A DNA stretch of 64,000 nucleotides from contig JAKVBU010000008.1 of the NCBI GenBank assembly GCA_022446885.1, forward strand, positions 1-64,000. Direction: 5' to 3'. Below are positions 6,741 through 24,329 of this stretch, piece by piece. The notes beneath the pieces are model-generated. The model was not told where the DNA came from and ran no database searches. It saw nothing but the letters and a program-made list of their open reading frames with translations. The position numbers and the translations under genes were made by a program. The stretch comes from Phycisphaerales bacterium. GTDB taxonomy: Bacteria; Planctomycetota; Phycisphaerae; Phycisphaerales; SM1A02. Position 1 is the stretch's first letter. Each line of letters begins with the position of its first letter.

Positions 6741-8382
6741 GACAGTTGGTTCAAGTCTACTGATGGCCTGCGTGCTTGCGGGTGGGCCCATGTTGCAGCC
6801 GCGCATGGGCGAGCCGCTGGCTGCGCTGAGCGATCAGCAATTGGACCTGTTCTGGGTGGGGTTGGAGGACTACCTCAAAAATTTCTCGGTGGACGAGGGG
6901 CTCGGTCCAGGCTTCAATCAGACCTCGTGTGCGTCCTGCCACAACAATCCCGTGGGTGGGGCCGGGTCGCAGCTTGTGACTCGATTCGGGCACATGGGCA
7001 AGAAGGGCGGCTTCGATCCGATGGCTGATCTGGGCGGGTCGCTGCTGCAGGCCAACGCCGTAGATGAGTCCTGTCAGGAGTTCATACCCGGTGGGGCGAA
7101 TGTGACGAGTCTGCGGGTTACGCCCGGAGCGCTGGGCTACGGCTTGATCGAGGCCATTGCCGATGCCGACATCCTCGCAGTACGCGATGCCCAACCAGCC
7201 CCCCAGCGCGGCACGGCCCGAATGGGTGTCCCTATCGAGGGTGGCCCTGAGCGAGTTGGTCGATTCGGCTGGAAGGCCCAGTTGGCCACGGTGCTGTCGT
7301 TCAGCGCTGATGCCTCATTGCAGGAGTTGGGAATCACCAGCGAGTTGCTTCCGGTAGAGAATGCCCCGCAAGGCGATTGGCAGAATGTGATCGACTGCGA
7401 CTTCGTGGACGACCCGGAAGAGCCCGTCAATCCCGACGGATTGACGTACACCCAGACAATCACAGCCTATCAGCGGTATCTGGCCCAACCCCCGCAGACG
7501 CCACGCATCGGCATGGCCGGGGCCGATGTCTTTGAGGCCGCCGGGTGCGCCGTCTGTCACACGCCAACATTCACAACCGTGTCTGACCCGACGTTGGAGT
7601 CGGCGCTACGTGATGTCGAGATTCATCCCTACAGCGACTGGCTGCTGCACGACATGGGTGCTGCAGCGGACGGAATCGGTGACGGGTCCGCCGGGGTGCG
7701 TGACATGCGAACGCCGCCTCTATGGGGCGTGCGCCGTCGTAATCCGATGTGGCACGATGGGCGTGTCGGCGGTGGTACGTTTGAAACCCGCGTCGTCGAA
7801 GCCATCGAGTTGCACGGGGCCACCGGCAGCCAGGGCATGGAGGCCGCTGCGGCCTTTGCCGGGCTCAACACCCAAGATCGAGCGGCCCTGATTGCGTTTC
7901 TGGGGTCGCTGGGGCGGGCTGAGTTCGATGCAGATGGAAACGACGTTGTCAATTTGCTCGACATGCATCTGGTGGAGAATGGGCTCGTGCCTTGCAGCCA
8001 GATTGACATGGTCATCGGCCCTGACGACCCCTGCGCCGTACATGACCTGGATGCCGATGGGGCTGTGACACAGGCCGATGCCGCCCTGTATGCCATTGCG
8101 TTAGGCGAACTTGCGATTGACTGCGACGGTGATTCCATCGCTGATGTGCTGCAGATTTTCGCGGATCCCTCGCTGGATCAGGATCTGGACGGCGATATTG
8201 ATGGTTGTCAGCCCTGCCCTGGCGACGCCAGCGGCAATGGGCAGGTGGACGCAGACGACATTCTGGCCGTATTGGCCGACTGGGGCACTTGCGATGGGTG
8301 CCCCGGAGACGTCGATGATGACGGTTTGGTCGGGGTTGACGATATTCTCTTGATCATCGCATCGTGGGGGGAGTGTCCCTGA
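6739..8382 (+). CDS. Secreted di-haem oxidoreductase (DUF1111/putative peroxidase) with dockerin-like tag
   Basis: 547 residues from ATG 6739, preceded at nine bases by the ribosome site GGAGAGGAG. After a signal peptide there are two c-type haem sites: CASCH at residues 64-68 and CAVCH at 270-274. This is the layout of the DUF1111 di-haem oxidoreductases related to MauG/cytochrome c peroxidases, which would act in the periplasm or at the surface. MRTPPLWGVRRRNPMWHDGR is the conserved region near the second haem. The last 150 or so residues contain two EF-hand/dockerin-like units (GDASGNGQVDADDILAVLAD and GDVDDDGLVGVDDILLIIAS) ending WGECP, probably a surface-sorting or attachment tag. The FG-GAP gene follows after 16 bases. 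Substrate unknown. Confidence 0.88.
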   Translation: MTVGSSLLMACVLAGGPMLQPRMGEPLAALSDQQLDLFWVGLEDYLKNFSVDEGLGPGFNQTSCASCHNNPVGGAGSQLVTRFGHMGKKGGFDPMADLGGSLLQANAVDESCQEFIPGGANVTSLRVTPGALGYGLIEAIADADILAVRDAQPAPQRGTARMGVPIEGGPERVGRFGWKAQLATVLSFSADASLQELGITSELLPVENAPQGDWQNVIDCDFVDDPEEPVNPDGLTYTQTITAYQRYLAQPPQTPRIGMAGADVFEAAGCAVCHTPTFTTVSDPTLESALRDVEIHPYSDWLLHDMGAAADGIGDGSAGVRDMRTPPLWGVRRRNPMWHDGRVGGGTFETRVVEAIELHGATGSQGMEAAAAFAGLNTQDRAALIAFLGSLGRAEFDADGNDVVNLLDMHLVENGLVPCSQIDMVIGPDDPCAVHDLDADGAVTQADAALYAIALGELAIDCDGDSIADVLQIFADPSLDQDLDGDIDGCQPCPGDASGNGQVDADDILAVLADWGTCDGCPGDVDDDGLVGVDDILLIIASWGECP

Positions 8383-8398
8383 CATGGGAGATCCACGC

Positions 8399-10774
8399 AT
8401 GCTGAAATCGACGCTGGCCATTTTGCTTACCGCCAACCTGTGCGGCGTTGTCTCTGCTCAATGGGTGGAGTTTGCTCAGGAGACCTCTGCTCGATTGCAG
8501 GCAGACGGGTCGGTGGGTGCCAATGACACCGAAGAGAAAGACTACGCCGTCGGTGACATCGACAACGACGGCGACGAGGATCTCATCTGCGCTCGGAAGG
8601 AGCCCTTCACCTCCACCGGGCGAGGCATCAACATTCTCTTCATGAACGAGAACGGCGTGCTGGTTGATCGCACCCAGATGTACGCGACCGCCTCGAACGT
8701 GTCCGGCGATCAGGGCTTTCTCACGCCGACGAACGACCGTGATGTGAAGATGGCCGATCTCAACGGCGACGGGTGGCTCGACGTGGTCACCGCAGTCACG
8801 CTCACCGACGGCGCACCTCGGCACCTGTCCCACCCTCGCGTCTACATCAACCTGGGCGAAGAAGACGGGCAGTGGCTCGGCCTTCGCTTCGAAGATGGCC
8901 GCATCCCTGAGATGCACGCCAGCGGTGGTCCACGCTTCTGCTCGGTCGTGGCAGGCGACATCGACAACGACGGCGATCTCGATCTGTACTTCGGCGATTA
9001 TGACTCGGGCACGACCCAGATCTTTGACTACAACAACCGGCTGCTCATCAATGACGGCAATGGCTGGTTCACCGACGAAAGCACGCAGCGGATGAATTCC
9101 GAAATGCTGCTCTCGGCTTTCGGGGCCGCCAGCGAAATGTGGGACGTGAACGAAGACGGCGCGCTCGATGTGATCAAGCAGACGTCGCTCAATCCGCCTC
9201 AGCACATAGCGATTACCTACAACAACCCTTCCAACCCGGGTTGGTTCAACGGCTATCAGATTGTTGATCAGTTGGCTCCGTACTTCGTGACAACCGGTGA
9301 TCTCAACGGCGACGGCAGGCTCGATCTCGTCGTGGTGGATGACGGCATCGACAGCTACTACTTGAATCAGGGCAACAACAGTGCAGGTCAGGTGAACTGG
9401 TCCATGCGGACCTTCGCTTCAGCTACGAGCGGATTCGGTGGAGATGCGTACATCACTGATCTCGACCGCGATGGCAACCCCGACGTGATCATCACCGATG
9501 TGGACGTGGACATTCCCGGCTGCTCTCGTACGACCCACATTCTTCGCAACAACGGCGATGGCCCTGATGTGACCTTCTCGTCGCCCGCAACCGGCTTCCC
9601 TGGTTCAGCCCTCACCGGCTGGCACGACGTAGGCATCATCGACATCAATGGCGACGGGTGGGACGATCTCGTCGTCGGTCGCTGCAGCTCCACGGAAGTG
9701 TGGATGAATCAACCGCCGATCGGATTGGTCTTCTATTGGGAGACAGGGATTCCCGGATTTGTGACTCCAGAAGAGCCCACTGAGGTGATCCTGCGGCCTG
9801 AGGGATTCGGCGGCGAGATGCTCGATGCCGACTCTCTGTCATTCCACACTCGCATAGAGGGCGGCGATTGGGCATCGATGCCCGTCAAGGCGATAGGGGA
9901 CGGGCGATTCGCGACCTCCATTCCAGCTGTGGCGTGCGTCGAGCGAGTGGAGTTCTATGCCATGGCTGAGGGCACGTCTGGGACCGAGTATCGCGATCCG
10001 CCATCGGGTGGGGCTGAGCCCTACCGGGCCATCGCAGCCGACGGTCAGGCGCAACTGCTCCGCGACGACATGGAAGAGGACACCGACGGGTGGATGGTGG
10101 TAAACGACGCATCGCTGGAGACGGGCGCGTGGGAGCGGGTCGATCCACTGGGCACGCTGTATGGCTCCACACCATCTCAGCCTGAAGATGACGCCACCGC
10201 AGGTTCTGATGCGGTGCGGTGCTGGATCACGCAGAACGGAACCGTCGGCGGCAGCGTCGGCGAGGCCGATGTCGATGGAGGCCCCACCAGCCTTCTATCT
10301 CCCATGCTCGATCTGAGTGTGGGCGACGGCACCGTCACCTACATGCGGTGGATGTACGACAGCGAGCTATTCGACACGCTCAAGACGTATGTGAGCAACG
10401 ACGAAGGCAACTCATGGACATTCGTGCATGAGACCGGTGGCACGCAGAGCATGTGGGAGTCGGCTTCGTTCGTCGTCTCCGAGTATGTCGAGCCCACCAG
10501 TACCGTTCGCGTGGCCTGGGTCATCCAGGATGCAGACTCACCCTCGGTCGTTGAAGCCGGTATCGACAACCTGCAGGTTGACTCGTTCGTTTGCGACAAG
10601 GCCGAGCCATGCCCCGGAGATATCGATCAGGACGGCGAGGTTTCCGTGGAGGACATCCTCGTCATGCTGGCCAGTTGGGGCGACACGGGTGGCGCGCCCG
10701 CTGACATCAATGGTGACGGGGTCGTCGATGTGAACGACCTGCTCATTCTGCTCTCAGGCTGGGGGCCCTGCTGA
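8399..10774 (+). CDS. Secreted FG-GAP/VCBS repeat protein with dockerin-like tag
   Basis: 791 residues. ATG 8399 is preferred over 8384 because it has GGGAGA five bases ahead and starts directly with a signal peptide (MLKSTLAILLTANLCGVVSA). The N-terminal half carries many FG-GAP calcium-binding repeats (VGDIDNDGDEDLI, MADLNGDGWLDVV, AGDIDNDGDLDLYF, TGDLNGDGRLDLVV, ITDLDRDGNPDVI, IIDINGDGWDDLVV), forming a propeller. The C-terminal third looks like a beta-sandwich module (DDMEEDTDGWMVVNDASLE onward). It ends with a two-unit dockerin-like tag (GDIDQDGEVSVEDILVMLAS, DINGDGVVDVNDLLILLS) and WGPC. Likely co-transcribed with the upstream di-haem enzyme and secreted to the same place. Function inferred as binding or structural. 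Confidence 0.85.
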   Translation: MLKSTLAILLTANLCGVVSAQWVEFAQETSARLQADGSVGANDTEEKDYAVGDIDNDGDEDLICARKEPFTSTGRGINILFMNENGVLVDRTQMYATASNVSGDQGFLTPTNDRDVKMADLNGDGWLDVVTAVTLTDGAPRHLSHPRVYINLGEEDGQWLGLRFEDGRIPEMHASGGPRFCSVVAGDIDNDGDLDLYFGDYDSGTTQIFDYNNRLLINDGNGWFTDESTQRMNSEMLLSAFGAASEMWDVNEDGALDVIKQTSLNPPQHIAITYNNPSNPGWFNGYQIVDQLAPYFVTTGDLNGDGRLDLVVVDDGIDSYYLNQGNNSAGQVNWSMRTFASATSGFGGDAYITDLDRDGNPDVIITDVDVDIPGCSRTTHILRNNGDGPDVTFSSPATGFPGSALTGWHDVGIIDINGDGWDDLVVGRCSSTEVWMNQPPIGLVFYWETGIPGFVTPEEPTEVILRPEGFGGEMLDADSLSFHTRIEGGDWASMPVKAIGDGRFATSIPAVACVERVEFYAMAEGTSGTEYRDPPSGGAEPYRAIAADGQAQLLRDDMEEDTDGWMVVNDASLETGAWERVDPLGTLYGSTPSQPEDDATAGSDAVRCWITQNGTVGGSVGEADVDGGPTSLLSPMLDLSVGDGTVTYMRWMYDSELFDTLKTYVSNDEGNSWTFVHETGGTQSMWESASFVVSEYVEPTSTVRVAWVIQDADSPSVVEAGIDNLQVDSFVCDKAEPCPGDIDQDGEVSVEDILVMLASWGDTGGAPADINGDGVVDVNDLLILLSGWGPC

Positions 10775-11735
10775 GGGCCGGTACGAACCAGACGTTCCGA
10801 AATCGCACTTCGTCTACTGCTGCCGACCCATGCGCCTGCAGCAGGAATGGCTGCGGGTCTGGACCTTCCTCGATAGACCAGCCTGTCTTGACTGGAACGA
10901 GCTCGTCATCATGCACCTTCACCCCGTTCCACCAGACGGTCATGCGGGCATCCGTGACCTTTTCGCCTTGGGACCAGATCGGGGCTGTGTACCAAACGTC
11001 GTATACCTGCCAACGACCGGGGCCTGCTGAGGCATTGTGATCGGCAGCCTTGATGCGGTAGATGGAGCCCGCTTCGCTGAACTTGATGTTGTGCGGCGGC
11101 CCTGCGGTATTGAGAATCTGAATCTCATAGCGGCTGTCGAACTTCACGCCGCTGTTTCCGTTGTCCTGCCTATCGGGATCGCCGCCGGGCGGGCTCATCC
11201 ACTCGATGTGGTAGCGGCCTGATCCCAAGGGTTCCCTGCTGACGACATCACCGGCTTGTCGATCGACGACAAGATCCTCACCTTCTACCGTCCATGTCAC
11301 GTCGGAGCCGTCTCGCTTCATTTGCAGGCGTTCAGTAGTTCCACCTGTGAACAACTCCACCGCGCCTGGTGGGGGTGTTCGATCGAGTTCAGGCCGCACG
11401 GCGATGGCCGAAGCGGGGAAGTCTGGGCCCGGCCGTGCGTTTGCCTGCAGACAGCCGGTCCAGACAAGCGCCGGGGCCGATGCGCTGGTCACCGAGAATC
11501 GAACCGCGCCGGATGCGGGCGATCCAGTCTTCAGAAACAGTCGGTGCCCATCTGGTGACGCGATGACATCTTCCACCTGACCAGGATCAAATGACCACAG
11601 GGTTTCGTCGAGCAGCGCGGTGTGGGCGACTGGCTGGTCGCAGGTCACGAGCACGCCGTCACTGCGTGCCTCCACCCCGATGATGTCTGTACCCAAGGAG
11701 ACTGTGAGCGTAGTTGTAGTCAAGAGTGCGAGCAT
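10743..11735 (-). CDS. DUF1080 (3-keto-disaccharide hydrolase-like) protein
   Basis: 330 residues. A short hydrophobic N-terminus may be a signal peptide. From about residue 125 the protein matches the DUF1080 concanavalin-like fold: VELFTGG, the central SGRYHIEWMSPP, NSGVKFDSRYEIQILN, and the closing strand VRFRNVWFVP. Members bind or cleave glycosides and are greatly expanded in planctomycetes. The first 120 residues form a separate beta-rich domain that I do not recognise. The start has no Shine-Dalgarno site but has TAGCAT six bases upstream (11742-11747), suggesting a leaderless mRNA. The 3' end overlaps the FG-GAP gene by 32 bases. Confidence 0.8.
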   Translation of the reverse strand: MLALLTTTTLTVSLGTDIIGVEARSDGVLVTCDQPVAHTALLDETLWSFDPGQVEDVIASPDGHRLFLKTGSPASGAVRFSVTSASAPALVWTGCLQANARPGPDFPASAIAVRPELDRTPPPGAVELFTGGTTERLQMKRDGSDVTWTVEGEDLVVDRQAGDVVSREPLGSGRYHIEWMSPPGGDPDRQDNGNSGVKFDSRYEIQILNTAGPPHNIKFSEAGSIYRIKAADHNASAGPGRWQVYDVWYTAPIWSQGEKVTDARMTVWWNGVKVHDDELVPVKTGWSIEEGPDPQPFLLQAHGSAAVDEVRFRNVWFVPALSRAPSLRAE

Positions 11736-11741
11736 GGCCGC

Positions 11742-11747
11742 ATGCTA
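11742..11747 (-). promoter_or_regulatory. -10-like TAGCAT, leaderless start of DUF1080 gene
   Basis: On the minus strand TAGCAT is followed by six bases (GCGGCC) and then the ATG at 11735. A transcript starting the usual 6-7 bases after a -10 box would begin at the start codon. No -35 box stands out. Confidence 0.5.
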
Positions 11748-13151
11748 GCTGCGGTTCGGACGCGAGCCTTCAGGCAGGTGGATCGCTGCCGTGACACCGG
11801 GGCTCTGCAGGTTCACGAACAGGGTCGATCCGTCGGGTGAGAAGCACGCCCCCGCGAATTCCGTCTTGGAACCGCTGTTGCGAGCGATGCGGTAGACCGA
11901 GCCTTGGGGCGTGACACCCAGCAGATGCTCGGGGGCGTCGCCGTCTTCGCACACGATCAGATCGCCCCACGGCGCCACCGTGATGTTGTCAGCGTTTTCG
12001 ATGACGTTGGGGTCGTCAGGTTGCAGGAAGAGCTCGACCGTGCCGGGATGGGCCACTTCGCCGCCCGTTGCCTCAAATGGCGAGGGGCGATAGCGCAGCA
12101 ACTGCCCGTGCTTGGTGCGGCCGCCAGTGGTGCACGCGAACCAGATCTCCTTGTCACCCATCCAACACCCCTCGGCCCGGGCGAACCGCGCTGCCCCCTT
12201 TTTGAAGGCCTGATACCGCAAGGCGTCGTCGTCGCCGTCTACCGACTCCAGATCAATCCAGTGCACGGGCGACGGGACGCCGCGAGTCAGCGGCATGTGG
12301 GAATCCCAGTCGCGGGTGTCGGCCGAGGCGCAGCCATCCAGCGCCAGCGCCTGCAGCCGGCCACCTTCAAGCAGCCGATCCGGATGAACCGGCAGCCAGC
12401 GATAAAAGGCGCCATCACTGCGGTCCTCGGTCAGGTACACGATGCCGGTGCGTGGGTCCGTGGCGACGGCTTCGTGGCGGAATCGCCCCATCGTTGTGAT
12501 CGGCTCCGGGCGACACAGACGAGCGCCGTCGGCAGGAACTTCAAAGCACCAGCCGTGCGTCTTTGTCCATGGCGGGCCGTGTTCGGGGCCGGTGACATAC
12601 TCCTCGCAACTGATCCACGTGCGCCGAGGCGTTGGGCCACCAGCGCAGTTATATTCCGTTCCCGCGAGAGCCAGATGCTGCTGCTCAATGGCTCGGGCTT
12701 TGTGATTCCAGACCACACGTGTGACCCCGCCACGGCAGGGCATGTCGTGACCGAACAGACTGCGGCCGGTGTCGTACACATGTCCCCTCAAGGCCGGATC
12801 CCAGTGTTCAAAGCCATCGCCCCACGGGCCGTGGGCATTGGGGTGGATCGCAGCCACCTCGTGATTGCGCATCAGGATGGTTGTGCCGTCGGCTCCGGCA
12901 AAGGCAGCCATGCCGTCATGACGGCCTGGCACGACGAGGCCGTCGTCCATGGTCGATCCGGCCGGCGAAAACAGGGTGTAGGTGAGCCCCGCCGGAAGAT
13001 CCAGCAAGCCCGCCGGATCTGGAATCAGTGGCCCCCAGCCGATGGGGTCGATCGTGAGTTGACCGCCTCGGCTGGCTCGTCCGAGCCCCAGAAAACCGAG
13101 GCTGACAGCTGCGGCCTGCCGAAGAAAGAGGCGTCTGGTCGCTGTGGGCAT
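11745..13151 (-). CDS. Tat-exported PhoX-family (DUF839) protein
   Basis: 468 residues. It opens with a twin-arginine signal (TRRLFLRQAAAVSLGFLGLG), so it is exported folded with cofactor. The body matches PhoX/DUF839 proteins, a beta propeller that in PhoX binds Ca2+ and Fe for alkaline phosphatase activity. Visible family motifs are NHE near residue 97, NCAGGPTPRRTWISCEE, GRFRHEAVATDP, YLTEDRSDGAFYRWLP, and the final CFSPDGSTLFVNLQSPG. Many family members outside true PhoX have no shown phosphatase activity, so the reaction is uncertain. It starts with TAGACT six bases ahead and no ribosome site. The DUF1080 gene begins only 10 bases beyond its stop on the same strand. Confidence 0.85.
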   Translation of the reverse strand: MPTATRRLFLRQAAAVSLGFLGLGRASRGGQLTIDPIGWGPLIPDPAGLLDLPAGLTYTLFSPAGSTMDDGLVVPGRHDGMAAFAGADGTTILMRNHEVAAIHPNAHGPWGDGFEHWDPALRGHVYDTGRSLFGHDMPCRGGVTRVVWNHKARAIEQQHLALAGTEYNCAGGPTPRRTWISCEEYVTGPEHGPPWTKTHGWCFEVPADGARLCRPEPITTMGRFRHEAVATDPRTGIVYLTEDRSDGAFYRWLPVHPDRLLEGGRLQALALDGCASADTRDWDSHMPLTRGVPSPVHWIDLESVDGDDDALRYQAFKKGAARFARAEGCWMGDKEIWFACTTGGRTKHGQLLRYRPSPFEATGGEVAHPGTVELFLQPDDPNVIENADNITVAPWGDLIVCEDGDAPEHLLGVTPQGSVYRIARNSGSKTEFAGACFSPDGSTLFVNLQSPGVTAAIHLPEGSRPNRS

Positions 13152-13157
13152 GTCGGC

Positions 13158-13163
13158 AGTCTA
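13158..13163 (-). promoter_or_regulatory. -10-like TAGACT, leaderless start of PhoX gene
   Basis: Minus-strand TAGACT, then six bases (GCCGAC), then the ATG at 13151. No Shine-Dalgarno sequence fits in the gap. On the opposite strand TATGGT (13162-13167) could serve the divergent lipid kinase gene. Confidence 0.5.
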
Positions 13164-13200
13164 TGGTCGGTTGCGTCTTGAGCGTCTGGAGATTGCCACT

Positions 13201-15197: not shown

Positions 15198-15205
15198 GGG
15201 GCGGC

Positions 15206-15329: not shown

Positions 15330-16988
15330 ATGATCCGCCCAATTGGTTTGAGCGCAAAGACAAAGACCCTCTGCGCCTGTGTGGCGGCAGCCTCTGTTTC
15401 GACGCTGGCTGGTGCGACCCCGATCGAGGGCCCGCAGTGGGACGAGCCAATTCTCGTGGATGGTCAGTTGGTCTTCGAAGAGGGGGCCCGGATCCCCAAG
15501 GCGATGACCGACACTGAACGCCGGTTCATCGGCGAAGACGGCATCATGGCGCCACGCGGCGGCACGGCCCCGCCAATCGGCCCCATTCGCTGCGCCAGCG
15601 AGTACGAGCCCATGGCGGGGATCATTCTGGCGTGGGAGGGGTACTCCAGCATCATGCGACAGATGGCCGCCCACATCACCACGACGGGCGACGCTGATGT
15701 CTACGTGGCATGCGACTCATCCAGTGAAGCCAACTCGGCCCGCAACGCCATGGTGGGGGCAGGGGCCGATCCGGACAGAGTGTTCACGTTCGTTCGATCG
15801 ACGGATACCGTTTGGATTCGCGACTACGGGCCGCGCTACATCTTCGAAGGCGATTGCCGCGCAATCGTTGATCACACGTACAACCGGCCTCGCCCCAATG
15901 ACAACTCATGGTCCTCCTGGTTCGATGCGCAGGTGGGGCATGCCTACTACGAACACGAACTGGTACACGGTGGAGGCAACTTCCACCTCAATGGTGTCGG
16001 TGTTGCGGCGGCGTCGAAGCTCATCAGCAATGAGAACGGTGGCATGTCCGACGCCCAGATCATCGACATCTGGAGGCAGTATCAGAACGTCGAGACCTAT
16101 CTGCACGATCCGTTTCCGACCAATGTCGACTCCACCCAGCACATCGACATGTGGATGCAGATCACCGACGATCAAGAGATCATCATCAGTGACTGGCCCA
16201 CGGCCTCGGGTAGCACGCAGGACAACATCTGCGACTGGGCAGCCGGGTACTACCAGGGCCTGGGATGGACCGTCTACCGGACACCGGCATTCACGTCTGG
16301 GTGGACGCACTTCACCTACACCAACATGGTGATCTGCAATGATCTCGTGCTGCTGCCCAAGTACGCCGACATCTCCGACAGCTGGGATAGTCAGGCCCTC
16401 GCCACAGTGCAGGCCGCCATGCCCAATCGCACCGTGGTGCAGATCACTTGCGATGATCTCGCCTACAGCGCCGGCGTCATGCACTGCATCACGATGCACA
16501 TGCCGGCACATGTCGGCGGCGTGAATCCCACAACGTGTGTGCGCTATCCGCTTGCTGGTGCGTCGTACGAAGCAGGGCAGACGATTGCGGTCAATTGGAT
16601 CAGCGATGATGACGAGTTCAACGTCGTGTCCGTCGACATTGACTTGTCGACCAATGGCGGCGCCACCTGGACCTCGATCGCCTCTGGTGGGGCTGATGAC
16701 GGGTATCACACCTTTGCGGCACCCAACGTGTCCACCTCGGCAGCCCATGTTCGTGTGACGGCGCGAGACGCAGACGGCAACACCGGAGCCAGCCAGTCGG
16801 CCGCCTTCACGATCGAGTCAGACCAGATCGCCGGTGATGCCAACGGCGATGGCATCGTGAACGTCAACGACATCCTGCTGGTGGTGTCCCAATTCGGGTG
16901 TGCGAGCAGTTGCTCGGCGGATGTGGACGGAGACGATCAGGTCACCGCGACTGACATTCTGATGGTGCTCGCCAACTGGACGATCTGA
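15330..16988 (+). CDS. Secreted agmatine/peptidyl-arginine deiminase-like enzyme with dockerin-like tag
   Basis: 552 residues. A signal peptide of about 30 residues precedes a complete PAD_porph (pentein) catalytic domain. Candidate active-site residues can be placed: Asp165 in WIRDYGP, the HGGGNFH loop at 213-219, His271 and Asp273 in QHIDMW, and Cys386 in GVMHCITMH. These enzymes turn guanidino groups into ureido groups and release ammonia. Most agmatine deiminases are cytoplasmic; export points to use of free or peptide-bound arginine outside. A beta-sandwich module (residues 400-500) follows, then a dockerin-like tag (GDANGDGIVNVNDILLVVSQ, DVDGDDQVTATDILMVLA). AGGAGC precedes the start. 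Substrate unknown. Confidence 0.87.
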   Translation: MIRPIGLSAKTKTLCACVAAASVSTLAGATPIEGPQWDEPILVDGQLVFEEGARIPKAMTDTERRFIGEDGIMAPRGGTAPPIGPIRCASEYEPMAGIILAWEGYSSIMRQMAAHITTTGDADVYVACDSSSEANSARNAMVGAGADPDRVFTFVRSTDTVWIRDYGPRYIFEGDCRAIVDHTYNRPRPNDNSWSSWFDAQVGHAYYEHELVHGGGNFHLNGVGVAAASKLISNENGGMSDAQIIDIWRQYQNVETYLHDPFPTNVDSTQHIDMWMQITDDQEIIISDWPTASGSTQDNICDWAAGYYQGLGWTVYRTPAFTSGWTHFTYTNMVICNDLVLLPKYADISDSWDSQALATVQAAMPNRTVVQITCDDLAYSAGVMHCITMHMPAHVGGVNPTTCVRYPLAGASYEAGQTIAVNWISDDDEFNVVSVDIDLSTNGGATWTSIASGGADDGYHTFAAPNVSTSAAHVRVTARDADGNTGASQSAAFTIESDQIAGDANGDGIVNVNDILLVVSQFGCASSCSADVDGDDQVTATDILMVLANWTI

Positions 16989-17007
16989 AGCTCTTTGGCC
17001 CAGCGGG

Positions 17008-17013
17008 TACCAT
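17008..17013 (+). promoter_or_regulatory. -10-like TACCAT, leaderless start of small membrane protein gene
   Basis: TACCAT, then six bases (GCTCGC), then ATG 17020. The same hexamer and spacing occur before 45079 and, on the other strand, before 21434. Confidence 0.55.
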
Positions 17014-17019
17014 GCTCGC

Positions 17020-17484: not shown

Positions 17485-17487
17485 CGC

Positions 17488-18452: not shown

Positions 18453-18514
18453 GGGCGGTCCCTTCTGCATCGTTCAGCGTTGCGTCAAGATCTGGTCGAG
18501 GCGGCAACGCGTGT

Positions 18515-18538
18515 GGCGGAGGTCTGACAACCTCCGCC
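18515..18538 (-). terminator. Hairpin between lipoprotein gene and greA
   Basis: GGCGGAGGT and ACCTCCGCC form a nine-base perfect stem with a six-base loop. It lies between the lipoprotein stop (18570) and greA start (18452) on the same strand. There is no T run, so it may be a U-less terminator, a processing site or part of the greA leader. Confidence 0.45.
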
Positions 18539-18569
18539 GGTGCGAGTGTCGCCTGTTTTGGGCTGGAGG

Positions 18570-18947
18570 TCAATCCGTCTGGTGATCGGGGGCCTCGGCG
18601 TCGCTCACGGGCACGTCGAGGCGATCAACAATGGGCGGCTGCCCCGTTCGTTCAAGATTGACCGTGAGTTTCACCGGCCCATGGGTGCCCGCTGGTGGCG
18701 CCACCATGTCGACTCGCAGGTACTCATCTGCGGACACCATCTCAACTGATGCCGATTCGCCTGTATTGCACAGCACTTTGGGTGCGGCCATGACTTGGTC
18801 GCCCCTGGTCAGTTTGACCGACACGAGAATCTGGTCACTATTTTGGCGCTGCGCTGTGGCGGACGTCTCAATGCGTTTGGTGGGTGTGCAACCAACGACA
18901 CACAGCGTCATGAGCAGCGCCAGTGCTGATGCGGTTCGTTCGAGCAT
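18570..18947 (-). CDS. Small lipoprotein, unknown function
   Basis: 125 residues from ATG 18947, opening with a lipoprotein signal (LALLMTLCVVGC, lipid on the Cys). The mature part is a single beta-rich domain (DQILVSVKLTRGD, APKVLCNTGESASVEM, GPVKLTVNLERTG). The repeated phrase of a value being returned in high-order strands resembles the secretin-type short domains seen in planctomycetal lipoproteins, but I cannot assign a family. The longer frame to 19238 overlaps the divergent asparaginase gene and is rejected. TACACT six bases before the ATG supports this start. Confidence 0.75.
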   Translation of the reverse strand: MLERTASALALLMTLCVVGCTPTKRIETSATAQRQNSDQILVSVKLTRGDQVMAAPKVLCNTGESASVEMVSADEYLRVDMVAPPAGTHGPVKLTVNLERTGQPPIVDRLDVPVSDAEAPDHQTD

Positions 18948-18953
18948 GGATCC

Positions 18954-18959
18954 AGTGTA
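18954..18959 (-). promoter_or_regulatory. -10-like TACACT, leaderless start of lipoprotein gene
   Basis: Minus-strand TACACT, six bases (GGATCC), ATG 18947. It shares two bases with the rightward hexamer at 18958. Confidence 0.55.
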
Positions 18960-18963
18960 GGCT
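18958..18963 (+). promoter_or_regulatory. -10-like TAGGCT, leaderless start of asparaginase-family gene
   Basis: TAGGCT, six bases (CCTCGT), ATG 18970. It overlaps the leftward hexamer 18954-18959, so polymerase should not be able to occupy both at once. Confidence 0.55.
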
Positions 18964-18969
18964 CCTCGT

Positions 18970-19899
18970 ATGTCAGGCGAGATCATCGTTTCAACTTGGT
19001 CATTCGGTCGTCGTGGGCATGATGCCGCGTGGGGTGCGTTGGTCGATGGGGGATCATCACTGGACGCGGTGGAGAAGGTATGCCGAGTCGCCGAAGACGA
19101 TCCGGAGATCGATTCGGTTGGGTGGGGCGGACGGCCGGATCGAGATGGTCGCATGACGCTCGATGGTTGCATCATGCTCGATCCACGGCAGTGTGGTTCG
19201 GTGGCATGTGTCGAGCGGCATCGCCACCCGGTATCCATGGCGCGGCAGGTGATGGAACGAACTGATCACGTCATGCTCGTGGGGCCGCTGGCGGATGACT
19301 TCGCCAACGCGTGCGGCATGCCCGAGGAACCGCTGCTGGCGCCTTCTGCCAGAGCTGCGTTCGACGCTCGCCAAGTTGGTGATGGTGGGGCAGGGGGGGC
19401 AGGTGCGCCGCCGATAGACAGCCCATCTGGCGCCCTCTTTCCTGACGAACAACGCTGGCGTCATCACGACACCATTGGAACATTGGCGATCGATGGTCGA
19501 GGTGTACTTGCCGGTGCCTGCTCCACGAGCGGTATGGCATGGAAGGTGCCTGGGCGCGTGGGCGACTCTCCCATCATCGGGCATGGGTTGTATGTGCGGC
19601 CGCAGGTTGGGGCTGCCACCGGTACGGGGACCGGGGAACTGGTCATGGGTGAGTGCGGGTCGTTTCTGGCAGTCGAACGCATGGCCATGGGTGACTCGCC
19701 GACTGAGGCATGTGTACATGTGCTGAAGCGCATTCTCGATGCCGGCCCCATCGAGTCTCATGAGACGGTGGCGATGCTGGCACTGCGTGAGGATGGTGTG
19801 TGGGGTTCCGCTTCGATCCGTCCGGGATACCGCACCAGTGTGCGCAGGCATGATCAGGACGAAGCGCTTGAGCCCCACGTCGTGCTGCTGGAGCGCTGA
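18970..19899 (+). CDS. Aspartylglucosaminidase / isoaspartyl peptidase family Ntn hydrolase
   Basis: 309 residues of the asparaginase-2 family, which cleave themselves into two chains and hydrolyse Asn-linked sugars or isoaspartyl bonds. The cleavage site and nucleophile are visible in HHDTIGTLAID, where the Thr of HDTIG becomes the new N-terminus. Substrate-pocket motifs follow: GRVGDSPIIG and GTGTGE. The start has no signal peptide, so it probably acts in the cytoplasm; true glycosylasparaginases of eukaryotes are lysosomal. HDTIG and GDSPI favour the glycosylasparaginase branch. The Ppx/GppA gene follows after two bases, so they share an mRNA. Confidence 0.88.
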   Translation: MSGEIIVSTWSFGRRGHDAAWGALVDGGSSLDAVEKVCRVAEDDPEIDSVGWGGRPDRDGRMTLDGCIMLDPRQCGSVACVERHRHPVSMARQVMERTDHVMLVGPLADDFANACGMPEEPLLAPSARAAFDARQVGDGGAGGAGAPPIDSPSGALFPDEQRWRHHDTIGTLAIDGRGVLAGACSTSGMAWKVPGRVGDSPIIGHGLYVRPQVGAATGTGTGELVMGECGSFLAVERMAMGDSPTEACVHVLKRILDAGPIESHETVAMLALREDGVWGSASIRPGYRTSVRRHDQDEALEPHVVLLER

Positions 19900-19901
19900 G
19901 C

Positions 19902-20831
19902 GTGCGGGTCGCTGCCATCGATCTGGGAAGCAACAGTGTCAAGCTGTCAATCGGTGACGTAGAGGGCGCTCAGGTGCGGGTGATCGAGTCTGATCGCGTT
20001 CTGTTGCAACTTGGGCGGCTCGTGGCGGCGACGGGCCTGATTGGGCCCGAAGCGATTGAGGCTGCAGCTGCCACCGTCGCCGCCATGGCTACGAGGGCTC
20101 GACTGGCGGGCTGTCGCCGCATCGACGTTGTAGGCACGAGCGCCGCCCGTGAGGCCGCCGATGGTGCAACATTGCAGGCGGCCGTTTCTGCAGCGGGAGG
20201 TGTGCCCATGCGGGTGCTCAGCGGCCTTGACGAGGCGCACCTGGTGTCGCGTTCCGTGGAGGTTGCCCATGGCATGCCTCTAGGAACTGCGGTGCTCTTT
20301 GATGTGGGGGGGGCAAGTACCGAGATTGTCCGAATAGACGCAGGCCTCGTGGTTGATCAATGCTCGTTGCCCCTGGGCGCGGCTCGGCTGGCCCAGCAGC
20401 ATGGTCTCACGTCTGCCTCGCCGCCGGGCTCTGATGTTCTGGCTGCCCTCGACGAGTCGATTGCAGCTGAACTCGATGCCCTCGAACCAGCAGGAGTGAC
20501 ACAGGCGGTTGGATGCGGCGGAACAGTGACGGCGTTGGCACTGCTCAATCATCAGGGTTTCGACGCGTCAGGTTGTGCTTCAGAGGCCCTGTCGAGCATC
20601 GATGGAGTGACGCTTGAGTTGGAGGCCATCGTTGAGTTGACCGACCGTCTGTCCTCGGTCAGCCTGCGTGAACGAATGCAGTTGACCGGTTTGGAAGAAG
20701 GGCGGGCCGCCATCCTCCCAACTGGCGGGCGGTTGCTGTGGCGACTCATGGAGCGGTTGGGCGTGTCGAGTGCAGTGGTGCACGAGCAGGGCATCCGTAC
20801 AGGTCTGTTGGCAGACTTGGCAGCCCGCTGA
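19902..20831 (+). CDS. Ppx/GppA family exopolyphosphatase
   Basis: 309 residues beginning at a GTG two bases after the upstream stop; GGAG in the end of that gene serves as ribosome site. Actin-like ATPase-fold motifs are clear: AAIDLGSNSVKLSIG (phosphate 1), VLFDVGGASTEIV (phosphate 2), and VGCGGTVTALAL. The family hydrolyses polyphosphate or pppGpp. Only the two N-terminal domains are present; the HD-like C-terminal extension of E. coli Ppx is absent, as in the short form of many bacteria. Substrate preference cannot be read from the sequence. Confidence 0.9.
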   Translation: MRVAAIDLGSNSVKLSIGDVEGAQVRVIESDRVLLQLGRLVAATGLIGPEAIEAAAATVAAMATRARLAGCRRIDVVGTSAAREAADGATLQAAVSAAGGVPMRVLSGLDEAHLVSRSVEVAHGMPLGTAVLFDVGGASTEIVRIDAGLVVDQCSLPLGAARLAQQHGLTSASPPGSDVLAALDESIAAELDALEPAGVTQAVGCGGTVTALALLNHQGFDASGCASEALSSIDGVTLELEAIVELTDRLSSVSLRERMQLTGLEEGRAAILPTGGRLLWRLMERLGVSSAVVHEQGIRTGLLADLAAR

Positions 20832-20855
20832 GGTGCCCGCTTCGGGATCGAAGCG

Positions 20856-21434
20856 TCAGAGCGGATGGAATGGTCGTGTGGGCGCGGGCTCCAGATGGAT
20901 GCCGTCGGATCCGACCGGACAAACCTGCAGGCAGGTGCCACAGCCTGTGCAGTGAGACTCGTCGATGCGTGGTCGTGACCCCGGATCGTGCGTGATGGCG
21001 CCTTCAACAGGGCAGGCATCGGCGCAGACAATGCACGGCTCACCTTGCCAAGCCAGGCAGCCTCCTTCATGCACCTGCACCAGCGCCATGCGCACCGGCA
21101 GTTCATGGCGTAAGACGCCAGGCTCACAGGCTTGGATACAGGGCGTGTCTTCGCACATGACGCAGGCTTGAATCGCCGCGTCGATGTAGGGCGTCCCTTC
21201 TCGCCTTGGGCCGAACGTGTTGTCAGCGATTCGGATCGCCTTGGGCGGGCACGCATCGGAGCAGGCGTCGCAGCGCGTACATGCCGCGAGGAATTGCCCT
21301 TCGGCGACTGCGCCCGGCGGTCGCTGAAGTACCTCAAGTGATCGATCCGGCCCAGCGGCACGTGCCATGCGGGCCGCGGTCTCCTGACCACGGCGCAGCG
21401 CCCCTCGAAAGAAGTCTCGGCGGCTGACGGACAT
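20856..21434 (-). CDS. Tat-exported 4Fe-4S ferredoxin-type protein (NapF/NapG-like)
   Basis: 192 residues. The N-terminus SRRDFFRGALRRG is a twin-arginine motif, though the hydrophobic part is short, so export is likely but not certain. Four cysteine clusters that can hold 4Fe-4S centres follow: CTRCDACSDACPP, CVMCEDTPCIQACEPG, CIVCADACPVEG and CTGCGTCLQVCPVG. The arrangement matches NapF/NapG-type electron carriers. No nitrate reductase or other redox enzyme gene is nearby, so the partner is unknown. TACCAT stands six bases before the ATG. Confidence 0.85.
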   Translation of the reverse strand: MSVSRRDFFRGALRRGQETAARMARAAGPDRSLEVLQRPPGAVAEGQFLAACTRCDACSDACPPKAIRIADNTFGPRREGTPYIDAAIQACVMCEDTPCIQACEPGVLRHELPVRMALVQVHEGGCLAWQGEPCIVCADACPVEGAITHDPGSRPRIDESHCTGCGTCLQVCPVGSDGIHLEPAPTRPFHPL

Positions 21435-21440
21435 GCTCCG

Positions 21441-21446
21441 ATGGTA
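21441..21446 (-). promoter_or_regulatory. -10-like TACCAT, leaderless start of ferredoxin-type gene
   Basis: Minus-strand TACCAT, six bases (CGGAGC), ATG 21434. The CGGAG in the spacer is too close to the ATG to act as a normal ribosome site. Confidence 0.5.
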
Positions 21447-21485
21447 GCGATCGACCCCAAACGCAACGCTATGCTCTGATCCAAG

Positions 21486-22817
21486 ATGCTCAATCGCGCC
21501 GTCTGCCTTGAAGCTCCCGCCGATGAATTCTCTGCCTGGCCTGGCGGCCGAGTCACGGCTTGGCTCGCCTGGACAGCACCTGCCCTCTACTTTCTATTTG
21601 AGTTTCTGGTGCGGGTGCTGCCCAGCGTCATCGAGCCTCAATTGCAGTCCGAAGTGCACGCCACTGGGGCTCAATTCGGATTCAACATGGGCCTGTACTA
21701 CCTGGCCTATGCCCCCATGCAACTGGTCGTGGGCGTACTGCTGGATCGATTTGGAGGCCGTGGTCCACTGACCACATCGTCGATCGCACTTGCCGGAGGC
21801 TGTGTGCTCTTTGCCCTGGCCACGTCGATTGGCTGGATGGGCGCTGGCAGGTTTTTGATGGGGTTCGGGTCGGCCTTCGCCTATGTGGGCGCGATCTATG
21901 TGGCCACCTCCTGGTTCCCTCGCAAGCGGCTCGCACTCATCGCCGGGTTGACCGCGGCACTGGGCATGCTTGGAGCTGTTGCCGGACAGATCGTTGTGGG
22001 TTTGTTGCTGGAGACAACGCCTTGGCGAACAGCCATGTGGGCTTGTGCAGGCACGGCACTTGCGCTTGCTGTGTGCATGTGGATGTTGATACCTGATCGA
22101 CCGGCATACATCACTCGTCGCATTTGCGACTGTAGAGAGGCAGCTGGCGGGACACTGCGTGGTGCACTGGGGAGTGTGTTGGGACGTGGCGTCAACTGGT
22201 TGCTCGCACTCATCACAGGCTTGATGTTTCTGCCCATCGGTGTGTTTGCCTCACTCTGGGGCGACCGATTTCTCGAATCCGGGCTGGGCATGGCACACCA
22301 GAGTGCGACCCAGGCCGACTCGATGATCTATGTCGGGTTGGGTGTTTCCGCACCTTTGATGGGCTGGTGGACGGACCGCACTGGCCGACGGATGGGCACC
22401 ATGCGAATCGGCACAGCCTTGATGCTCATTTCAATGCTGCTTCAGTTCTACGTGGTTACACCTGAGACGGCCGGATGGTCGTGGGTGTTGTTGTTCCTGA
22501 TGGGCTTCGGCGGCGGCTCGCTCATTTTGGGCTTTCCCTTGGCCATCGAGCGCAATCCCGCCCACGCACGAGGGCTGTCGATGGCATTCCTCAATTGCGG
22601 GCAGATGGGGCTCGTCTTCTTTGGTCAGTGGGTCACAGGACTGCTGTTCGACCTCGTGGCAGGCTCCGGTGATGACGTTGTCTACACGCTCTCCGATGCC
22701 CGAAAGGCCTTTTTGATGCTGCCAGTAGCAGTCGCACTGGCGTTGGGGCTGCAGTTCTTGATCCCTACAGGGCACCAAGGCAGCGATTCGGTGGCCAAGG
22801 GCGTCATCGCACATTGA
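21486..22817 (+). CDS. Major facilitator superfamily transporter
   Basis: 443 residues with about twelve membrane segments in two halves split by a soluble loop near residues 200-225. The MFS signature after helix 2 is present as GVLLDRFGGRGP, and its counterpart in the second half is GWWTDRTGRRMGT. It would move a small solute using the proton gradient across the inner membrane. The substrate is not recognisable, and the divergent ferredoxin-type gene gives no clue. TATGCT lies ten bases before the ATG, a slightly long version of the leaderless pattern. Confidence 0.9.
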   Translation: MLNRAVCLEAPADEFSAWPGGRVTAWLAWTAPALYFLFEFLVRVLPSVIEPQLQSEVHATGAQFGFNMGLYYLAYAPMQLVVGVLLDRFGGRGPLTTSSIALAGGCVLFALATSIGWMGAGRFLMGFGSAFAYVGAIYVATSWFPRKRLALIAGLTAALGMLGAVAGQIVVGLLLETTPWRTAMWACAGTALALAVCMWMLIPDRPAYITRRICDCREAAGGTLRGALGSVLGRGVNWLLALITGLMFLPIGVFASLWGDRFLESGLGMAHQSATQADSMIYVGLGVSAPLMGWWTDRTGRRMGTMRIGTALMLISMLLQFYVVTPETAGWSWVLLFLMGFGGGSLILGFPLAIERNPAHARGLSMAFLNCGQMGLVFFGQWVTGLLFDLVAGSGDDVVYTLSDARKAFLMLPVAVALALGLQFLIPTGHQGSDSVAKGVIAH

Positions 22818-22877
22818 CATCAGGCCTTCAGCGGGCACACTGGTAGTGGGGGATGACGCGCGAAAGAGGACTGCTCC

Positions 22878-24329
22878 ATGCTTGTCTCCACATTGATGTT
22901 GCCGATTCTGGGGTTGTCGCTGTCAGCCACGCCTGAGCATGAAGTGCCTGTTCGGCTCACCTCGGTGCGAACGCTGGAGGTCGTGATTTCGCCTTCCACA
23001 TCGAGCGCCGTCGTCCGGTCAGGCGTCCGCAATTGCCCTCAGGAGATTGCCACACACACCGATTCAGACTTCGGCCCTGGCGAGTACATCGTGCAGGCCG
23101 GATTCGAGCAGCAGGAGGCGGCGGCGGCGTCATACCTGTTGCCAGCCTCCGCCTTTCCGATTCACTTCAACAGCGCCGAGATTCTCTTCGCAACCGCAGG
23201 GGCGACGACCCAGACCACGACGGAGTGGTCATTTGAACTGTGGGCAGGCGATCCTGGTAACGGCACTCTGATGCACACGTTCGCCTCGGACGGTTCCATC
23301 ATTCCCCATCTGGTGATGCCTCCAGGAACGACCGGCACGATCGTGCAGTTGGTGATCGATCCGGGCGATCCCGAGCAGATCTTCATCGACGACAACGGCT
23401 CCCACACATACACGGTTGCATTTCGGATCGAAGCCCACCATACGCCCGGGTATCCGTGTGTCGAGCCACCCAGCCAGACTCAAAACGCATTTCCGACGAC
23501 CGACATGTCGGGTGTTGCTTCGATGAGTGGCAACTGGATTGACGCCATCGATGGTGCGTTCTGTTTCTGTGGAGTGGGGTGGTTCTCATTCGGTTCATTC
23601 CCCTCAATCTGCACCCCGTCGGGAGACTGGGTGCTGCGATCCACTTTCACGCCTTGGGAGTGCAACGCGGCCGAGGGGGCCTGCTGTTTTGACGACGGGT
23701 CATGTCAGACGCACACCGAGGTCAATTGCGTGACGCTCGATGGGACGTTTGCGGGTGCCGGCATTGATTGCGACGCGGCCGATTGTCAGGCTGCTCCAGG
23801 GGCATGCTGCGTCGAGGCGACCGGGGCCTGCCTGGAGGTGGACGAGGTCACGTGCACAGGATTCGGAGGCGAGTTCCACCCCGACGAGAGTTGTTCAACA
23901 TTTGTGTGCTTCCCTGAAGGCGCCTGCTGCCTTGCAGACGGCAATTGCACCGGGCCGGTCTCAGATGAAGTGTGCACCGGATTCGGTGGCATGTTCATGG
24001 GAGACGGTAGTGACTGTTCCGTGGTGGACTGCCCGGATCCAGTGGGCTGGTGTTGCGCCGATGACGGGTTCTGCGCCGATCTGAATGAGGGGCAGTGCTT
24101 CCTCTTCGATGGCGTGTGGGGAGGTGCTGGAACCAGTTGTGACGATCCTGATGCGTGCGGTCAGACTGATTGTCCCGGCGATGTAGACGGCAACGGGCAA
24201 GTTGACGTAGACGACATTCTGGTCATCATTTCCAACTGGGATTCCAGTGGTGAGGGCGATGCCAATGGGGACGGCACAGTTGATGTCAACGATCTGCTGA
24301 TGGTGATCGGAAACTACGGCGACTGCTGA
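22878..24329 (+). CDS. Secreted cysteine-rich repeat protein with dockerin-like tag
   Basis: 483 residues starting eight bases after AAAGAGGA. A signal peptide is followed by a beta-rich domain (residues 60-250) that I do not recognise. From about 265 there are four to five copies of a roughly 45-residue repeat of the form GACC...G.C......C...GG.F.G.G..C....C (GACCFDDGSC, GACCVEATGACL, GACCLADGNC, GWCCADDGFC), rich in disulfide candidates. It ends with two dockerin-like units (GDVDGNGQVDVDDILVIISN, GDANGDGTVDVNDLLMVIGN) and YGDC. The GACC repeat is, as far as I remember, common in Phycisphaerae surface proteins and has no assigned function. It faces the tagged gene at 24334 with only four bases between. 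Confidence 0.8.
   Translation: MLVSTLMLPILGLSLSATPEHEVPVRLTSVRTLEVVISPSTSSAVVRSGVRNCPQEIATHTDSDFGPGEYIVQAGFEQQEAAAASYLLPASAFPIHFNSAEILFATAGATTQTTTEWSFELWAGDPGNGTLMHTFASDGSIIPHLVMPPGTTGTIVQLVIDPGDPEQIFIDDNGSHTYTVAFRIEAHHTPGYPCVEPPSQTQNAFPTTDMSGVASMSGNWIDAIDGAFCFCGVGWFSFGSFPSICTPSGDWVLRSTFTPWECNAAEGACCFDDGSCQTHTEVNCVTLDGTFAGAGIDCDAADCQAAPGACCVEATGACLEVDEVTCTGFGGEFHPDESCSTFVCFPEGACCLADGNCTGPVSDEVCTGFGGMFMGDGSDCSVVDCPDPVGWCCADDGFCADLNEGQCFLFDGVWGGAGTSCDDPDACGQTDCPGDVDGNGQVDVDDILVIISNWDSSGEGDANGDGTVDVNDLLMVIGNYGDC

Follow-up and report, generated by a model that had tools for sequence, protein, structure and literature searches.

Covarying end cysteines suggest a disulfide-clasped dockerin tag on probably exported proteins of Phycisphaerae

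In tag-rich genomes of the Phycisphaerae, a two-loop, dockerin-type tag shared by many different proteins nearly always carries either both or neither of two cysteines, one ahead of its first calcium loop (N-Cys) and one behind its second helix (tail Cys). We infer from this covariation that a disulfide clasps the tag head to tail, and do not read it as the mark of a C-terminal anchor. We consider it somewhat probable that the tag is a dockerin address closed by such a clasp, that most of its carriers are exported and that it docks to a receptor other than a recognisable cohesin. The cysteine pairing is the new point here; a GC-type dockerin model already exists, and a related planctosome has been proposed.

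Four proteins encoded in the window, the 64,000-nucleotide stretch of a Phycisphaerales contig analysed here, share the tag at their C-termini (Table 1), as the original prediction held, and their reading frames close where it had them end. The WG or YG tail it described is present in the di-haem oxidoreductase (DHOR; WGECP), the FG-GAP protein (WGPC) and the Cys-rich protein (YGDC), but not in the deiminase (NWTI). Of the three terminal cysteines it listed, those of the FG-GAP and Cys-rich proteins are the last residue while that of DHOR is penultimate. Of these four unrelated proteins, three have differing upstream Pfam domains; the Cys-rich protein gave dockerin and weak EF-hand matches only. 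All four are probably exported.

Table 1. Tagged proteins of the window, their tags and the cysteines of the tags
Feature	Position	Strand	Remarks
DHOR with dockerin tag	6739..8382	+	PF06537 E 1.2e-32; PF00404 26.3 bits; start (MTVGSSLLMACVLAGG) was our choice inside ORF 6433-8382
DHOR tag	8215..8379	+	CPGDASGNG..WGTCDGCPGDVDDDG..WGECP; two loop-helix units, four Cys; AlphaFold2 model and fold match
DHOR tag Cys codons	N-Cys 8215-8217; tail Cys 8374-8376; linker pair 8290-8292, 8299-8301	+	
FG-GAP repeat protein with dockerin tag	8384..10774	+	PF13517 E 1.6e-31; PF00404 24.3 bits; NF041540 27.1 bits
FG-GAP protein tag	10610..10771	+	CPGDIDQDG..ADINGDG..WGPC; two loop-helix units; N-Cys codon 10610-10612; tail Cys codon 10769-10771
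PAD/agmatine-deiminase-type protein with dockerin tag	15330..16988	+	PF04371 E 6.8e-33; PF00404 25.1 bits
Deiminase tag	16827..16985	+	AGDANGDG..FGCASSCSADVDGDD..NWTI; two loop-helix units; neither N-Cys nor tail Cys; linker pair FGCASSC, codons 16899-16901, 16911-16913
Cys-rich protein, GACC-type repeats, dockerin tag	22878..24329	+	PF00404 18.8 bits (under cut-off)
Cys-rich protein tag	24171..24326	+	CPGDVDGNG..GDANGDG..YGDC; two loop-helix units; N-Cys codon 24171-24173; tail Cys codon 24324-24326

The identity of the tag was examined with profiles and a structural model. Three of the four proteins exceed the 22.9-bit cut-off of Pfam Dockerin_1 (PF00404). The exception, the Cys-rich protein, matches a profile built from 24 tags of the window's own genome at E 2.0e-21, its tag being one of the 24 rows. 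The name "GC-type dockerin", given in the original prediction, proved to be real: it is NCBIfam dockerin_GC (NF041540), described as 'GC-type dockerin domain-anchored protein'. Against its cut-off of 29 bits, two of the four window proteins match, with 27.1 and 22.4 bits; in a six-frame search of the genome the FG-GAP tag reaches 33.1 bits and the other three 26.4, 23.0 and 20.5. The same model matches 38 of 56 tagged proteins of the genome at E ≤ 0.01 and scores strongly elsewhere (53.4 bits for a tag of a Phycisphaeraceae MAG, 57.3 bits for one of genome G032). The window tags resemble this family in being two-loop dockerins that are mostly C-terminal. They differ in scoring near or below its cut-off and in having P, E or D instead of Gly before the tail Cys (tails GPC, GECP and GDC, with WTI in the deiminase), where a C-terminal Gly-Cys as a family trait is our assumption from the model's name. 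An AlphaFold2 model of one of the four window tags, that of DHOR (pLDDT 89.9, pTM 0.74), has as its nearest structure a type II dockerin, 2y3n_B (Z 8.9, 58 residues, rmsd 1.8). When solved structures were searched by sequence, most of the 60 matches listed were EF-hands of the calmodulin type, and one pair, 8x39/8x3a, was a dockerin. As modelled, the tag folds as a dockerin of two loop-helix units, and this predicted fold makes a docking role likely.

The original prediction proposed a genome-wide count and took many internal copies without secretion signals as evidence against a sorting tag. In the window's genome (G000; 2.87 Mb, assembly 97% complete) NF041540 gave 84 matches at E ≤ 1, of which 78 lie within 33 residues of a stop and 6 are internal, so that the pattern named as counter-evidence did not appear. 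The profile of own tags gave at least 149 matches at E ≤ 0.01, half-tags included, with 150 of 218 candidates scored. Tag-rich genomes carry from tens to more than 100 tags. The tagged proteins are diverse, as predicted, and most have a plausible export leader. By a strict home-made signal-peptide rule, which is crude and gave no separation, 28 of 56 tagged proteins and 34 of 95 control ORFs were positive (p 0.09); a looser and equally crude rule gave 47/56 against 58/95, and 19/41 for the window alone. Pfam families among the 56 include M12B (PF13583) and M14 (PF00246) peptidases, a C25 (gingipain-family) peptidase and PAD. They also include alpha-amylase, the GH81 C-terminal domain and CBM6, so the earlier statement that the cargo are not glycosidases was too strong, although most cargo lack glycosidase matches in the families listed and differ in this from the cargo of cellulosomal dockerins.

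The evidence for the clasp comes from the distribution of cysteines. The N-Cys site lies three residues ahead of calcium loop 1, at the other end of the tag from the tail Cys. In 368 tags, 304 have both cysteines, 3 the N-Cys only, 7 the tail Cys only and 54 neither; with three rows of genome G119 and one misparse removed, the counts for the remaining 364, which come from tag-rich Phycisphaerae, are 304, 3, 4 and 53, respectively. Rows dropped were 20 of the 84 own matches, 12 of 178 MAG ORFs, and 14 at the 368-tag count. The association holds within sources (G000, p 1.2e-13; G084, p 4.9e-12; G096, p 9.9e-6; three Phycisphaeraceae/Phycisphaerae MAGs pooled, p 1.3e-6), though these Fisher values overstate independence because the tags within one genome are related. 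The two sites form the pair with the highest mutual information in both G000 and G084; for the 198 tags outside the three MAGs they rank sixth, behind repeat-to-repeat pairs. Among 303 nearest-neighbour pairs of tags, both cysteines changed jointly in 45, the N-Cys alone in 10 and the tail Cys alone in 2. An odd number of cysteines was found in 44 of 364 tags, compared with a mean of 100 and a minimum of 78 in 2000 shuffles.

The rule was also followed in tags read separately. Nineteen tags read afterwards by eye, namely those within 20 stretches that are a subset of the new places found with the own-tag profile, comprised 17 with both cysteines, 2 with neither and none with one (p 0.006). This count leaves out L391 (minus strand, 512 aa; unparsable) and four tags with the second loop deleted, all four of which have both cysteines. 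Internal tags accepted by the parser (n = 17) gave 10 with both, 6 with neither, none with one and 1 misparse. Exceptions do occur. Three of the 14 C-terminal own tags dropped by the parser, in fragmentary frames (C87:89643, C1:4465 and C2:19361), have a tail Cys while no N-Cys is visible. The rule is looser in more distant genomes, where 29 domains read by eye comprised 5 with both, 19 with neither and 5 with one (p 0.008; tail Cys only in L091, L094 and L101, N-Cys only in L095 and L104). Of 13 single-loop half-tags read by eye, 12 have both flanking cysteines, an observation for which a clasp joining repeat 1 to repeat 2 offers no direct explanation.

Some tags have a second Cys pair in the linker, the window's deiminase among them. 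The linker has no Cys in 328 of 368 tags, one in 14, two in 25 and three in 1; these plain counts were used since overlap of the two linker windows in short linkers inflates the p value for the linker pair from the mutual-information run. Replacement of the clasp by a linker pair is a weak trend in these sequences, with p 0.004 over all tags and no significance within G000, within G084 or outside the MAGs. Repeat positions 2 and 15 are both Cys in 8 of the 10 tags carrying either in repeat 2, and for repeat 1 in 3 of 3. The 11 tags with such an internal pair all come from the three MAGs, and these pairs may be inherited from few events.

We propose that the tag has two calcium-loop/helix repeats arranged about a pseudo-two-fold axis and that, being mostly C-terminal on a large and diverse exported set, it would give all its carriers one address. 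In most tags the Cys before loop 1 and the Cys after helix 2, the 'GC' end, would bond and staple head to tail; in others this pair may be replaced or joined by a Cys pair in the linker, its pseudo-symmetric equivalent. Oxidative folding outside the cytoplasm would produce the bond, which could make the tag harder to unfold or to cleave with proteases. With calcium bound, the tag would then be recognised by a receptor at the cell surface or in the extracellular matrix, as a dockerin is by a cohesin, the receptor not being a recognisable cohesin in the window's genome. Type I and II cellulosomal dockerins (2y3n, 1ohz) share the predicted fold and would also share the holding together of head and tail. 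For a Clostridium thermocellum dockerin this is reported to be a non-covalent clasp in which the rings of Tyr5 and Pro66 stack (PMC4728124), whereas the disulfide inferred for the Phycisphaerae tags would be a covalent version. The window's genome has a match to the disulfide enzyme VKOR (PF07884; E 1e-11), but VKOR was found in 2 of 12 tag-rich genomes and thus lends no general support to the clasp.

The absence of a cohesin from the window, stated in the original prediction, extends to the whole genome as far as two profiles can tell: neither PF00963 nor a profile of eight Phycisphaerae cohesins gave a match at E ≤ 10 in G000. In this, unless a divergent cohesin was missed, the system differs from the cellulosome with its cohesin-bearing scaffoldin. 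PF00963 exceeds its cut-off in 18 of 120 sampled genomes of the class and in none of the 13 with at least 15 tags. The class-specific profile was run on 14 genomes. It recovered a second cohesin, not among its rows, in each of two control genomes (E 9e-14 and 2e-10), the two rows that stem from these genomes matching by construction. Among the 12 tag-rich genomes it was silent in 10 and gave E 0.019 and 0.26 in the others. A cohesin, absent or weak in tag-rich genomes by both profiles, was therefore rejected as the partner. Freshwater Phycisphaerae have been proposed to make a planctosome, a cohesin-dockerin complex with a lamin-tail-domain (LTD) anchor, in which M12B and M14 peptidases bear dockerins (PMC6461901); the class and both cargo families are those seen here. 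Such a complex, with a cohesin that has diverged beyond the reach of the two profiles, is possible but doubtful. LTD matches in 11 of 12 tag-rich genomes would fit it, as would a G096 protein with a cohesin match below cut-off (E 2e-4) and a G106 protein whose N-terminus has tags in tandem and which matches cohesin weakly (E 0.032). Against it stand the results of the cohesin searches, with a class profile that worked in controls, and the single LTD protein of G000, which itself ends in a dockerin tag and so looks like cargo rather than an evident anchor; the 863 residues of it that were read contain no cohesin match at E ≤ 0.1. The LTD protein was rejected as the anchor on this ground.

The failure of the cohesin searches to provide a receptor could also mean that none exists and that the tag is a calcium- and disulfide-stabilised end cap. 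We regard this as improbable, as cargo of many unrelated families shares this one module, and the best matches to its fold are dockerins, which bind proteins.

It is very unlikely that the tail Gly-Cys is an anchoring or processing residue, lipidated or covalently attached, which the loops only present. The MYXO-CTERM tag is reported to have an invariant Cys (PMC11980579), the wording of NF041540 ('GC-type', 'domain-anchored') suggests an anchor, and the chain stops 0-2 residues past the tail Cys in 297 of 308 tags (exactly at it in 66, one residue past it in 215). Yet the tail Cys is lost jointly with another Cys that precedes it by about 50 residues, is missing in 56 of 364 tags and is retained in internal ones. 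The Gly before it (178/308) is typical of the three MAGs (163/163) and rare elsewhere (15/145). In 307 of 308 tags the distance from loop 2, counted from its first Asp, to the tail Cys is 22-23 residues. A role of the final Cys as the functional end of the tag finds no support: this residue is locked in register to the loops, has a partner Cys at the opposite end of the domain and is kept in internal tags. MYXO-CTERM and PEP-CTERM tags consist of a signature followed by a transmembrane helix and a basic tail. The Phycisphaerae tag resembles them as one C-terminal tag on many unrelated proteins and differs in being a folded, putatively calcium-binding domain with neither helix nor basic tail after the Cys. 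Exosortase occurs in 117 of the 120 genomes sampled, whatever their tag number; it does not discriminate and was rejected as a partner. We give equally little credence to the tag as a secretion signal for an outer-membrane export machine, like the C-terminal domain of T9SS cargo: C25 peptidase and PAD are also T9SS cargo in Porphyromonas, but tags also occur internally or close to the N-terminus, and SprA_N (PF14349) was absent from 12 of 12 tag-rich genomes, a weak point as control genomes were also silent.

Returning to the clasped address, an extended form of it is conceivable though unlikely. It would be a redox-locked dockerin display without cohesin, in which a sizeable share of the proteome is led to one receptor, the disulfide takes alternative, pseudo-symmetric positions, and the single-loop half-tags, resembling the ancestor from which the domain was duplicated, pair through their two flanking cysteines as disulfide dimers.

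If the clasp is real, the 'GC' end would be a structural bond and not an anchor. The hunt for an enzyme that attaches something to this end would then be misdirected, and the receptor would become the question. With tens to more than 100 tags in a tag-rich genome, a single receptor could have much of what these bacteria export, most of them uncultured, under its control.

The original prediction held that four unrelated secreted proteins in the window share one C-terminal tag, and each of the four open reading frames (ORFs) does end in two dockerin-type loop-helix units (see table). The family name given there also exists, as the NCBIfam model dockerin_GC (NF041540), which matched two of the four proteins, both below its cut-off; the Pfam model Dockerin_1 exceeded its cut-off in three and fell below it in the fourth. 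That the proteins are otherwise unrelated stands for three of them, which have DHOR, FG-GAP and PAD_porph domains upstream, while Pfam gave only dockerin and weak EF-hand matches for the Cys-rich protein. The predicted structure of the di-haem tag, modelled from 32 sequences, was confident (pLDDT 89.9, pTM 0.74), and its best structural neighbours were dockerins, the first being 2y3n_B (Z 8.9, 58 residues, rmsd 1.8). A protein encoded beside the Cys-rich gene has a hydrophobic stretch and RRRRRR near its end, resembling a PEP-CTERM tail by eye; Pfam and NCBIfam searches with this protein gave no match.

Coordinates of tagged proteins and associated features
Feature	Sequence	Position	Strand
Di-haem oxidoreductase (DHOR), ORF end	window	8382	
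FG-GAP protein, ORF end	window	10774	
PAD-type deiminase, ORF end	window	16988	
Cys-rich protein, ORF end	window	24329	
Protein with PEP-CTERM-like tail	window	24334-25032	minus
Tandem-tag protein with cohesin-like match	G106, L344	95-1846	minus
L032 tag with second loop short or absent	G000, C12	51762-51881	

In the genome that holds the window (G000; 2.87 Mb, 108 contigs, 97% complete), NF041540 gave 84 matches at E ≤ 1, of which 78 ended no more than 33 residues from the stop codon and six were internal. A profile built from 24 G000 tags gave at least 149 matches at E ≤ 0.01, half-tags counted in; since 150 of the 218 candidates were scored, the genome may have more. Across the class, 61 of 120 sampled genomes had a tag match at E ≤ 0.01, and seven relatives had 29 to 84 matches each at E ≤ 0.05 (G084 82, G102 29, G096 68, G113 41, G090 83, G119 84 and G106 84). 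The tag family is real, widespread and already named.

The cargo was surveyed with Pfam on 56 tagged proteins. Among the 25 of 43 families listed were the peptidases S8 (3), M14, C25 and M12B, as well as PAD, DHOR, copper-binding proteins (2), beta-helix (3) and FG-GAP_3 (5), with further matches to alpha-amylase, a GH81 C-terminal domain and CBM6. By a looser home-made rule, 47 of 56 tagged ORFs had a hydrophobic leader versus 58 of 95 control ORFs, the window by itself giving 19 of 41; a stricter rule gave no separation (28/56 versus 34/95). Some of the nine tagged ORFs missed by the leader rule, such as the FG-GAP protein, have a leader by eye. On these home-made rules, export of the tagged proteins is likely. 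In five G084 loci (L266, L271, L274, L281, L282) more protein follows the tag, and at least three of these proteins have in common a WATVLE..PDPA.VT.. region; these proteins may resemble formylglycine-generating-enzyme-like proteins.

Side-by-side reading of the tags first suggested that a cysteine shortly before loop 1 (N-Cys) and one after helix 2 (tail Cys) are present or absent together. Among 368 parsed tags, 304 had both, 3 N-Cys only, 7 tail Cys only and 54 neither; with three rows from G119 and one misparse removed, the counts for the remaining 364 were 304, 3, 4 and 53, respectively. Five of the seven remaining exceptions have another cysteine in loop 1 or at −5. The covariation was also present within G000, G084, G096 and a set of three Phycisphaeraceae or Phycisphaerae MAGs (the named MAGs, source of 74 loci), each of these four sources taken separately; G000 alone (63 tags) had 45 with both, none with N-Cys only, one with tail Cys only and 17 with neither. 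When 19 two-loop C-terminal G000 tags were held out and read by eye only after the rule existed, 17 had both cysteines, two had neither and none was discordant. Among 14 C-terminal G000 tags dropped by the parser, three in fragmentary frames had a tail Cys and no visible N-Cys. By mutual information the two positions ranked first of all pairs in G000 and in G084, and sixth in 198 pooled tags outside the named MAGs. An odd number of cysteines occurred in 44 of 364 tags, whereas 2000 shuffles averaged 100 such tags and never gave fewer than 78, and 303 nearest-neighbour tag pairs showed 45 joint changes, 10 in N-Cys only and 2 in tail Cys only. G119 has a lineage-specific form of the tag with longer loops (DIANTDGD..DGxVDNGDF..AFF; L080, L322, L336, L340, L342), with cysteines at both ends in some copies (L080, L322 and L342) and, over the stretch read, at neither end in at least one (L336).

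Counted from the first Asp in loop 2, the tail Cys comes 22 or 23 residues later in 307 of 308 tags and is followed by 0 to 12 residues, and N-Cys lies at −3 in 302 of 307. Internal tags keep the rule (10 of 17 with both, six with neither, one misparse), and one G106 protein has two tandem tags near its N-terminus, each carrying the two end cysteines plus a linker pair. Given the fixed spacing, the variable chain end and the rule kept in internal tags, it is the fold, not the chain end, that sets the cysteine positions. Two further kinds of pair point the same way, to a head-to-tail disulfide clasp between N-Cys and tail Cys and not to an anchor. Linker cysteines number none in 328 of the 368 tags, one in 14, two in 25 and three in one; the window deiminase, the only one of the four window tags without a tail Cys, carries such a pair. 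Repeat-internal cysteines at positions 2 and 15 occur together in 8 of 10 tags in repeat 2 and 3 of 3 in repeat 1, all 11 being from the named MAGs. Under the established pseudo-two-fold symmetry of dockerins, the N-tail and linker pairs would be equivalent, as would the two repeat-internal pairs. The covariation could instead reflect another joint role of both cysteines, for example metal binding. In a C. thermocellum dockerin, ring stacking forms a known head-to-tail clasp (PMC4728124). Searches of an open-access collection, which omits most subscription papers, gave no hit for the term "GC-type dockerin" and, among the papers listed and in passages of PMC12484212, PMC5590126 and PMC5301203, no description of a dockerin disulfide clasp. 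Among 29 domains from more distant Phycisphaerae, counted by eye, five had both cysteines, three tail Cys only, two N-Cys only and 19 neither; given this looser covariation, the proposed disulfide clasp is no general feature of dockerin-like domains even within the class.

Single-loop tags were flanked by cysteines on both sides in 12 of 13 cases by eye; such tags would have to bond differently within the chain or else pair as dimers. Such C-terminal half-tags occur on G000 contigs C50 (L379), C18 (L043, L395), C28 (L042) and C48 (L031), and also in L118, L122, L151 and L182; several in G000 come after GACC-type Cys-rich repeats. The tags of L392, L396 (two), L381 and L032 retain the second helix and both end cysteines but have a truncated second calcium loop or none (for example, ..FGSMYTVDDILVTLANFGSGC).

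Cohesin had no match in G000 at E ≤ 10. It was over the cut-off in 18 of the 120 sampled class genomes and in none of the 13 with at least 15 tags; sub-cut-off matches occurred in G096 (E 2e-4) and G106 (E 0.017). A class-specific profile built from eight Phycisphaerae cohesins picked up, in both of the control genomes known to bear cohesins, a further cohesin that was not part of the profile (E 9e-14 and 2e-10). Of 12 tag-rich genomes, 10 gave no match to it and two matched, at E 0.019 and 0.26. The L344 protein of G106 is possibly an adaptor or scaffold: its two N-terminal tags, in tandem, are each flanked by cysteines, and it weakly matches the cohesin model (PF00963, E 0.032). As a partner, exosortase does not discriminate, being present almost throughout the class; G000 has one match. 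The published planctosome model (PMC6461901) combines a lamin-tail-domain (LTD) anchor that carries a cohesin with dockerin-bound M12B and M14 peptidases. Both peptidase families are likewise found among the tagged proteins of G000, whereas its LTD protein (L366, C12) has the tag at its own C-terminus and no cohesin match in the 863 residues covered. This protein has TSP3-like repeats, and its tag carries the linker cysteine pair and lacks the end pair.

A putative receptor is most likely from another or a very divergent family. We lean, with moderate confidence, slightly lowered by the looser covariation in more distant genomes and by the three parser-dropped tags, towards a dockerin address domain that is closed by a head-to-tail disulfide clasp and recognized by a receptor that is no recognisable cohesin. 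The sampled genomes richest in the tag have no cohesin over the Pfam cut-off, and the clasp offers a specific, testable mechanism for the hallmark cysteine of the tag.
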